Shown here: in pieces, positions 5,936 through 48,712 of the stretch
Position numbering within the stretch: the stretch's first letter is position 1
How the letters are laid out: every line of letters begins with the position of its first letter
Source of the DNA: Paracoccus aestuariivivens
GTDB taxonomy: Bacteria > Pseudomonadota > Alphaproteobacteria > Rhodobacterales > Rhodobacteraceae
Assembly (NCBI RefSeq): GCF_009711225.1
Contig: NZ_WMIE01000003.1
Coordinates: 124,001-188,000 of the forward strand
Reading direction: 5' to 3'
DNA length: 64,000 bases
Position numbers and translations under genes: made by a program
The notes under the pieces: generated by a model
What the model was told of the DNA's origin: nothing
The model's database searches: none
Seen by the model: the letters and a program-made list of their open reading frames with translations, nothing else

Positions 5936-5995
5936 ACCTGACGCTGGAATCCCTATTTTCAGGCCAAAGCCTGTCTACCCTTGGAGGATCTGCCT

Positions 5996-7894
<1,899 letters not shown>

Positions 7895-7910
7895 GTGCTG
7901 TATTGATAAA

Positions 7911-7941
7911 CCCCCGATCCTAGGATCGGGGGGTCTTTGTT
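7911..7941 (+). terminator. Rho-independent terminator after ftsH
   Basis: CCCCCGATCC and its exact reverse complement GGATCGGGGG are separated by only two bases (7911-7932), followed by GTCTTTGTTT. The T-tract is imperfect but the stem is strong. It lies 17 bases after the ftsH stop and probably also serves the convergent small gene at 7963-8043. Confidence 0.85.
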
Positions 7942-7962
7942 TCGCGGTGGTTTCCGGCTTGA

Positions 7963-8043
7963 TCAGAGCACGAGAAGCGCCACTGCTCCCAGCGCGAGAC
8001 CAAGGCCGAAACCGATATTGATGACAAAACTTGCTGCCTTCAT
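7963..8043 (-). CDS. Small membrane peptide, 26 residues, unknown function
   Basis: On the minus strand an ATG at 8043 opens a 27-codon frame ending in TGA at 7963. The peptide starts MKAASFVINIGFGLG and continues as one uninterrupted hydrophobic, Gly/Ala/Leu/Val-rich stretch, i.e. a single membrane helix with one Lys at the N-terminus. A good ribosome site (AGGAG, read on the minus strand at 8050-8054) lies six bases before the ATG, which is the main reason to believe it. It converges on the ftsH terminator. I do not recognise a family; position beside ftsH suggests a possible membrane regulator, but that is only context. Confidence 0.6.
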   Translation of the reverse strand: MKAASFVINIGFGLGLALGAVALLVL

Positions 8044-8215
8044 CTGTTTCTCCTTCTGTGAACGGAGCGGCTTGCGCCTTTGCTCCAGCTGAAAGAAAAA
8101 CTACGGTTCGCGCCATCAAGTTCCGCTTTGGGCGAAAAATCGCCTATCAGTCGTGTCCGTACGGCAACATTCCGCCCAGTTTTGGCGGCAGAGCGATAGT
8201 GATCAAGGAATAATC

Positions 8216-8530
8216 ATGAAACAGGGTGAACCCGTCCTTGCCGAAAGCTCGGAGATGCCCGCGCTTCGGGCCAAGATCGACGCGCTGGACGCCGAACTAA
8301 TTGCGCTTCTGGCCAAGCGGTCCGGACTGATCGATCAGGCGGCGCGGATCAAATTGCGCGAAAAGCTACCGGCGCGGATCGACAGTCGGGTCGAGGAAGT
8401 CGCGGCAAATGCCAGCCGACTTGCCACTGAGCATGGCCTCGATCCTCTACTGGCCGATCAGTTATGGCGCCTGATGATGGAGCATTTCATCGCGCAGGAA
8501 GAACGCGCCTTGGCGAAGGGTCGAACTTAG
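8216..8530 (+). CDS. Chorismate mutase, AroQ type
   Basis: A 104-residue all-helical protein. The first helix (LRAKIDALDAELIALLAKR, about residues 14-32) and the following ARIK/R motifs match the AroQ-class chorismate mutase fold, where Arg and Lys side chains of the long helix bind chorismate. The enzyme makes prephenate for Phe and Tyr synthesis. Length is that of a monofunctional domain (no prephenate dehydratase fused). The ATG at 8216 is used because residues encoded upstream look like noncoding sequence. The thioesterase gene on the other strand overlaps its last four bases. Confidence 0.85.
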   Translation: MKQGEPVLAESSEMPALRAKIDALDAELIALLAKRSGLIDQAARIKLREKLPARIDSRVEEVAANASRLATEHGLDPLLADQLWRLMMEHFIAQEERALAKGRT

Positions 8531-48528: not shown

Positions 48529-48712
48529 GAACCTGTCTTGAAGGGCGGTTTCGTCAGAAACCAACGGGAACCTTCCTTCAGGGCATGTTCGGGGTTCGGG
48601 AGCCGCGCGGTGGGACGCGAGGCACGAATGGAACCCCGCCCCTCATTCGCCGCCTTGCGCCGGTCGGGCCCCGACGACCGCTGCAAGCGAAAGACGAAAG
48701 GTTAGACCCTCT

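Follow-up and report, generated by a model that had tools for sequence, protein, structure and literature searches.

Introduction

CydX, KdpF, AcrZ and MgtS are small single-helix accessory peptides, and a small-xxx-small spacing of residues often marks close packing of membrane helices. SpoVM represents an FtsH-inhibiting peptide and, like CIII of lambda, is amphipathic; the mitochondrial protein Mic10 features two helices. Furthermore, inhibition of FtsH was described for the lambda CIII peptide in a section of PMC1838920, and a section of PMC8309996 presents IbsC, ShoB and DinQ as membrane type I toxins lacking a positively charged C-terminus. The promoter motif published for EcfG is given as GGAAC-N17-20-GTT in part of PMC6599016, and an excerpt of PMC5830050 ties the PhyR cascade of Rhodobacter sphaeroides to membrane stress rather than to general stress.

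The peptide gene and its neighbourhood

In the window, i.e., the whole stretch of 64,000 nucleotides from Paracoccus aestuariivivens that was analysed in this study, the following features were distinguished at the locus:

5996..7894, plus strand: ftsH, convergent neighbour (TIGR01241, E 1.4e-249)
7911..7932, no strand assigned: perfect GC-rich palindrome CCCCCGATCCTAGGATCGGGGG, between the stop codons of ftsH and the peptide gene
7963..8043, minus strand: 26-codon gene for a predicted single-transmembrane peptide MKAASFVINIGFGLGLALGAVALLVL, ATG at 8043, TGA stop (from the ORF list and homologues)
8050..8055, minus strand: Shine-Dalgarno sequence AAGGAG, 6 nt 5' of the ATG, with similar Shine-Dalgarno-like words at the same place in relatives
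8099..8124, minus strand: putative sigma-EcfG-type promoter element GGAAC-N17-AGTT (equal to GGAAC-N18-GTT), 81 nt 5' of the ATG
8216..8530, plus strand: type II chorismate mutase-like gene, divergent (head-to-head) neighbour (PF01817, 6.4e-18)

The open reading frame at 7963-8043 on the minus strand is almost certainly a real small-protein gene. Since the ORF call begins at the first ATG, GTG or TTG past the preceding in-frame stop codon, there is no longer form with one of these start codons. The first-pass annotation had proposed a single hydrophobic membrane helix, which was borne out as the product of a real, conserved gene by the Paracoccus homologues and the codon-position bias, and a well-placed ribosome-binding site, which corresponds to the AAGGAG at 8055-8050. 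That the peptide is unrecorded was tested against family models only, and there it held, no Pfam-A or NCBIfam model matching.

Concerning the neighbours, ftsH was listed from the TTG codon at position 5981; the TTG codon at 5996 follows a GGAGG and more likely represents the start. The chorismate mutase-like gene reached 67.7 bits against TIGR01803, which is under the cut-off of this model (73.35). In a terminator scan, the palindrome at 7911-7932 was scored as a terminator on the ftsH strand, and three terminator-like sites were obtained within 7800-8300 compared to 1.0 in shuffled sequences. On the peptide strand, the tail of the palindrome reads TTTATCAATA and is weaker. In 35 of 45 copies, a hairpin search revealed a perfect stem of at least six pairs in the 150 bases that follow the peptide gene, these stems not all being terminator-like. 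The earlier statement that the peptide gene is convergent with ftsH and shares its terminator region held for the orientation and for a terminator-like hairpin between the stop codons; the hairpin is only possibly common to both genes.

An operator-like inverted repeat, GGCGAAAAATCGCC, is visible at 8131-8144, in the interval that separates the promoter element from the divergently oriented chorismate mutase gene. In several relatives, the repeat reads GGCGGATTTCCGCC at the corresponding upstream place, and TTGCCGCA recurs near it; all of these observations were made by eye and are uncounted. The Rfam comparison provided nothing at gathering score at the peptide locus. Elsewhere in the window, positions 48593-48685 matched the Rhodo-rpoB cis-regulatory RNA with 62 bits.

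Distribution and conservation in Paracoccus

A protein search against 125 Paracoccus genomes yielded matches at E up to 1 in 48 of them, and a profile built from 25 copies provided a full or nearly full-length match in 43, of which 41 span positions 1-26, the others spanning 1-25 (G026) and 3-26 (G081). Profile matches of any kind at E up to 1 were obtained for 76 of the 125 genomes, those beyond the 43 being short. Each of the 43 genomes harbours one full-length match, and all 43 copies comprise exactly 26 codons when aligned from start to stop, ending with TGA (27), TAA (9) or TAG (7). The start codon is ATG in 42 of them. L024 features AGG instead; its frame, stop codon and promoter element are kept, and it perhaps represents a decayed gene or a sequencing error. 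A Shine-Dalgarno-like purine-rich word of four letters or more was found within 18 nt 5' of the start in 43/43 copies, the word pattern being broad and counted without a chance control.

The stretch is frequently open in other frames as well: among 42 sequences, the +2 frame is free of stop codons in 38, and two of the reverse frames are so in 38 and 39, respectively, so that the open frame alone proves little; the proof of a real gene comes from the codon-position bias and the conservation of amino acids. Among 17 close copies, hand-chosen for similarity, substitutions were distributed over codon positions 1, 2 and 3 as 550:125:1623. The pN/pS ratio amounted to 0.16 for 17 close copies, 0.35 for 29 copies and 0.27 for 12 copies, these values probably being upper estimates, since pS (0.55-0.62) is near saturation. 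The substitution pattern shows the predicted peptide to be under purifying selection. The check originally proposed for this locus, namely conservation of the frame and synonymous substitution in relatives, therefore turned out in favour of the gene, with 26 codons in 43/43 copies and pN/pS between 0.16 and 0.35. A frame broken in close relatives had been named as the opposite outcome: the frame was found intact wherever the gene is present, apart from the start codon of L024, but the gene itself is absent from some close relatives (L073, L074 and L075).

The loci examined, consisting of 30 from the search and 93 fetched ftsH 3' regions, represent 123 of the 125 Paracoccus genomes; the remaining two (G075 and G103) gave no ftsH match. 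The peptide is present in 13 and absent from 80 of the 93 fetched regions. No convincing peptide match was obtained for these 80, L128 offering only 507 bases past ftsH. A weak partial profile match (E 0.018) was recorded for L073, and no meaningful match to the peptide profile was given by the hydrophobic ORFs on the antisense strand of L073 and L077. On a chorismate-mutase tree covering 91 of the 123 loci (the peptide being present in 33 and absent from 58), which is based on few columns and contains many unresolved forks, peptide presence needs 8 changes compared to a shuffled mean of 27.1, none of 500 shuffles being as low. On one side of this tree, 42 rows are all without the peptide. The results fit a mainly vertical inheritance of the peptide gene in which it was lost several times, also among close relatives, and as several close relatives are without it, the gene is dispensable.

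The upstream element and the PhyR-NepR system

A candidate sigma-EcfG-type element, which had escaped the first-pass annotation, mostly goes with the peptide gene. The GGAAC...CGTT recurring upstream of the peptide copies was taken to be the EcfG consensus when first noticed; as it had been spotted visually in the very sequences that were then counted, the first count was not blind. Upstream of the peptide, GGAAC-N16/17-CGTT was found exactly in 24 of 45 copies and with up to one mismatch in 39 of 45; the corresponding values were 0.04% and 2.5% for shuffles, and 0/45 and 6/45 for reverse complements. The window element has one mismatch to GGAAC-N17-CGTT, featuring AGTT where the best copies carry CGTT. 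After variants had been seen ahead of nepR, the motif was relaxed to the published form GGAAC-N17/18-GTT, which occurs within 150 nt upstream of 34/43 Paracoccus and 8/14 other-genus copies, its 5' end being located at -54 to -101 relative to the ATG. Reverse complements contained this form in 2/57 cases and shuffles in 0.36%, the shuffles preserving single-letter composition only. It is absent in nine Paracoccus copies (L005, L011, L017, L020, L021, L026, L028, L029 and L032) and six other-genus copies (L186, L202, L201, L203, L217 and L224). Within the 450 bases past ftsH, 12 of 15 peptide-bearing fetched loci (13 from Paracoccus and 2 from other genera) contain the relaxed motif on the peptide strand, versus 1 of 80 peptide-less loci; counting either strand, 5 of the 80 peptide-less ftsH regions contain it.

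The genome of the window encodes NepR (PF18557, 4.6e-14) and PhyR (NF006623, 1.1e-106) together with an adjoining ECF sigma gene at locus L253, and from its place beside nepR we infer that this sigma factor is EcfG. A second PhyR-like gene (L254, G000:C3; NF006623, 5.2e-99) is located outside the nepR-sigma locus; a gene close to it reads like one for topoisomerase IB. NepR motifs were found in 27 of 31 loci, four giving none, and GGAAC-N16/17-CGTT with at most one mismatch lies ahead of 26 of the 27, exactly in 7 cases and with a single mismatch in 19. The only miss is L273, and the loci counted include some of genomes that have no peptide and some of a few other genera. The nepR element is mostly located 109-110 bases ahead of the QIDENL-type motif, as measured to the motif and not to the start codon. 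Altogether, 16 exact elements were counted in 32 phyR-type loci, the shuffled mean being 1.7. L253 is without an exact element, and its nepR element reads GGAAC-N17-TGTT; given the presumed autoregulation, the regulator would tolerate such -10 variants.

A PhyR-type domain was detected in all 35 Paracoccus genomes tested, comprising 15/15 with and 20/20 without the peptide, and an absence of PhyR was accordingly rejected as the explanation for peptide loss in this genus. Regarding other genera, the domain was found in 7/8 genomes with and 0/2 without the peptide, the match in G366 being weak (2.3e-6) and lying within a frame of sigma-factor size. The peptide-bearing genome G309 gave no PhyR-domain match. 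Peptide copies of G309 and G366 are without the element, which fits a joint loss of regulator and element; G331 has a PhyR match yet no element and is thus contrary, the numbers being tiny. Judging from these sequence elements, the peptide gene is very probably under EcfG-type control.

Occurrence outside Paracoccus

The sample of other genera consisted of 394 genomes, about one per genus. The Paracoccus-only profile detected two other genera at E < 1e-4 (G328, 3.1e-7; G134, 5.3e-5), and a wider profile detected eight (G134, G328, G312, G270, G272, G395, G366 and G344), six of which were part of that profile, leaving only G366 and G344 as independent. Of the family-wide matches (184/394 genomes at E up to 1 and 69/394 at E up to 0.3), most of the weak ones were discarded, being short and inside long frames. 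Among 16 other-genus candidates viewed, L212 and L209 were left out of the promoter count; the 14 candidates kept include some chosen partly by their position beside fhs. Outside Paracoccus, a minority of the genera in the family likely possess homologues of 24-28 residues.

In the eight other-genus loci read, the place of the chorismate mutase gene is occupied by fhs or folD, the peptide gene being arranged head-to-head with an fhs-type gene in seven (G328, G134, G270, G366, G344, G309 and G239) and with folD in one (G272). A MOSC gene flanks its other side in G328, G134, G270, G272, G309 and G239. In the Pfam comparison, FTHFS was identified in L203 and L202, and MOSC in all six loci with this gene; L043 matched tetrahydrofolate dehydrogenase/cyclohydrolase. 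The remaining fhs identities are based on similarity. The ftsH gene was found within about 2 kb of the peptide in G312, G395 and G366; in G272, ftsH (C1:2702549) and the peptide (C1:1173214) are ~1.5 Mb apart along the contig. The simplest account is an ancestral order, as we infer it, of ftsH-MOSC-peptide-fhs, and a rearrangement in Paracoccus that put the peptide next after ftsH.

A candidate peptide was present in 4 of 30 fetched fhs 5' regions, these belonging to the fhs genes most like the query and not to a random draw. Outside Paracoccus, the peptide gene is a minority trait. Upstream of fhs in L246 (G514), a hydrophobic ORF of 28 residues was observed together with an exact EcfG-type element; its similarity is distant, and it is a possible divergent homologue.

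Features of the peptide and proposed function

Residue counts were obtained for 46 distinct 26-residue forms (42 Paracoccus sequences and 6 others). Glycine at position 11 and glycine or alanine at position 13 are present in 46/46 forms, and glycine or alanine at positions 15 and 19 in 44/46 each; G11-x-(G/A)-x-(G/A) occurs in 44/46 and all four small positions, including 19, in 42/46, residues 11-15-19 forming a small-xxx-small spacing. Position 9 is polar (N, S, H or Q) in all 46 forms, and past residue 5 there is no charge save a histidine in two. The first five residues contain a positive residue in 27 and a negative residue in 13 forms, the two sets overlapping, which leaves the topology uncertain. 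Neither single members nor the 29-row alignment obtained anything significant in Pfam, NCBIfam, PHROGs or PDB sequences, and a tblastn search of plasmid sequences gave no peptide match. The literature searched contained no work on ribosome profiling and small proteins in Paracoccus or Rhodobacteraceae. Regarding PMC5107571, which deals with sRNAs of P. denitrificans, ftsH is absent from the main text as far as it was available, the accessible part of the sORFdb paper (PMC11796252) names no Paracoccus, and publications on EcfG and small membrane proteins contained nothing on point by title and start of abstract. The peptide family was not found described in the literature searched; small stress-related membrane proteins are a known category.

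Taken together, the sequences suggest that the gene probably encodes a single-helix peptide of the general stress response, which packs, through its face of small residues, onto another copy of itself or onto a partner in the membrane. Upon stress, phosphorylated PhyR would sequester NepR, and the sigma factor thereby freed would transcribe the peptide gene from the upstream element. The peptide, having almost no charge past residue 5, would insert as one helix into the inner membrane, where its small-residue face (G11, G/A13, G/A15 and G/A19) would pack closely on another copy or on a membrane-protein partner, and this packing may adjust membrane integrity or the activity of the partner during stress. 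The steps of membrane insertion and packing are predicted from the amino acid sequence. In a narrower form, which we regard as unlikely, the peptide would self-assemble via the G-x-(G/A)-x-(G/A)-x3-(G/A) face, its oligomers stiffening, curving or sealing the inner membrane under the general stress response. If true, it would represent a minimal membrane-shaping protein of 26 residues and, within this bacterial family, the founder of a peptide family, the reported membrane-stress role of the PhyR cascade being the physiological reason.

Alternative explanations

The first-pass annotation had placed the peptide in the context of FtsH modulation. In such a reading, the short hydrophobic peptide would bind the membrane domain of the protease and alter its substrate choice or activity, after the fashion of lambda CIII or SpoVM. 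The gene is indeed located downstream of and convergent with ftsH in 41/43 Paracoccus copies, the other two (L008 and L030) lying at contig ends, and a distance from ftsH of no more than about 2 kb, as seen in G312, G395 and G366, points in the same direction. However, the adjacency is inconstant, the genes being separated by roughly 0.6 kb in both L025 and L029 and, in G094, by about 1.4 kb, and a constant genetic tie fails in view of the 80/93 fetched Paracoccus ftsH loci without the peptide and the ~1.5 Mb separating the genes in G272. Furthermore, ftsH was found in 121/125 Paracoccus genomes versus only 43 for the peptide, and the two genes have no promoter or operon in common because they are convergent. 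A specific link to FtsH is therefore not supported; modulation of the protease appears distinctly improbable, and the adjacency more likely reflects inherited gene order than function.

A toxin of a type I toxin-antitoxin pair, kept in check by an antisense RNA, would agree with the size and hydrophobicity of the peptide, both being within the range given for membrane type I toxins in a section of PMC8309996, and as IbsC, ShoB and DinQ manage without a positively charged C-terminus, its absence here is no argument against a toxin. The single full-length match per genome at the same position in 43 genomes, the clustered inheritance and the purifying selection make this reading highly unlikely; in addition, no sigma-70-type promoter-like site was found on either strand of 7800-8300, being a weak test in an alphaproteobacterium. 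Of similarly low probability is a small subunit like CydX or KdpF, made constitutively and having a structural role in a respiratory or transport complex, the promoter-like element being incidental: a single helix with a conserved small-residue face and a fixed length is what is expected of a helix packed in a complex, but no operon with such a complex was seen in the loci read, and the element is far above chance and accompanies the gene. That the frame is open by chance in a high-GC intergenic region, as the other, often open frames over the same stretch could suggest, is hardly conceivable given the codon-position bias, the fixed length of 26 codons and the residues conserved over 43 genomes.

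The preferred reading, i.e., a helix-packing peptide of the general stress response, would add a small membrane effector to the PhyR-NepR-EcfG cascade, which has been little studied in this bacterial family. The peptides constitute a bacterial protein family that is very small but well supported and has no Pfam or NCBIfam match, and a testable regulator together with a conserved helix face makes their function directly approachable. The locus also illustrates that adjacency to a famous gene can mislead, the gene order pointing to ftsH and the promoter elsewhere.

Comparison with known systems

A weak, non-significant match to Mic10/DUF543 was obtained for 2 of 29 members (best E 0.085), which is at chance level, a glycine-rich helix being the common feature; DUF543 corresponds to Mic10. 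The FtsH-inhibiting peptides SpoVM and lambda CIII are likewise short, and the peptide gene is near ftsH here; however, both are amphipathic, whereas the peptide of this study is predicted to form a plain hydrophobic helix, and its linkage to ftsH is not general. With the membrane type I toxins (IbsC, TisB, Fst and Lpt), as portrayed in the accessible part of the source, it has the very short, hydrophobic single helix in common, but it is single-copy, occupies one position, is inherited in clusters and has no antisense partner that could be seen, and an APXXXGXXX motif is absent from the window peptide. CydX, KdpF, AcrZ and MgtS resemble it in their one helix and accessory size; in contrast, no operon with a target complex was seen in the loci read and no family match was obtained for the peptide. 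As for the sigma-EcfG (PhyR-NepR) regulon of Alphaproteobacteria, no 26-residue single-helix member was found described in the literature searched; the putative element upstream of the peptide gene is similar to the one ahead of nepR, both in the same genome and in related ones, and it agrees with the motif as published in the part of PMC6599016 considered here.
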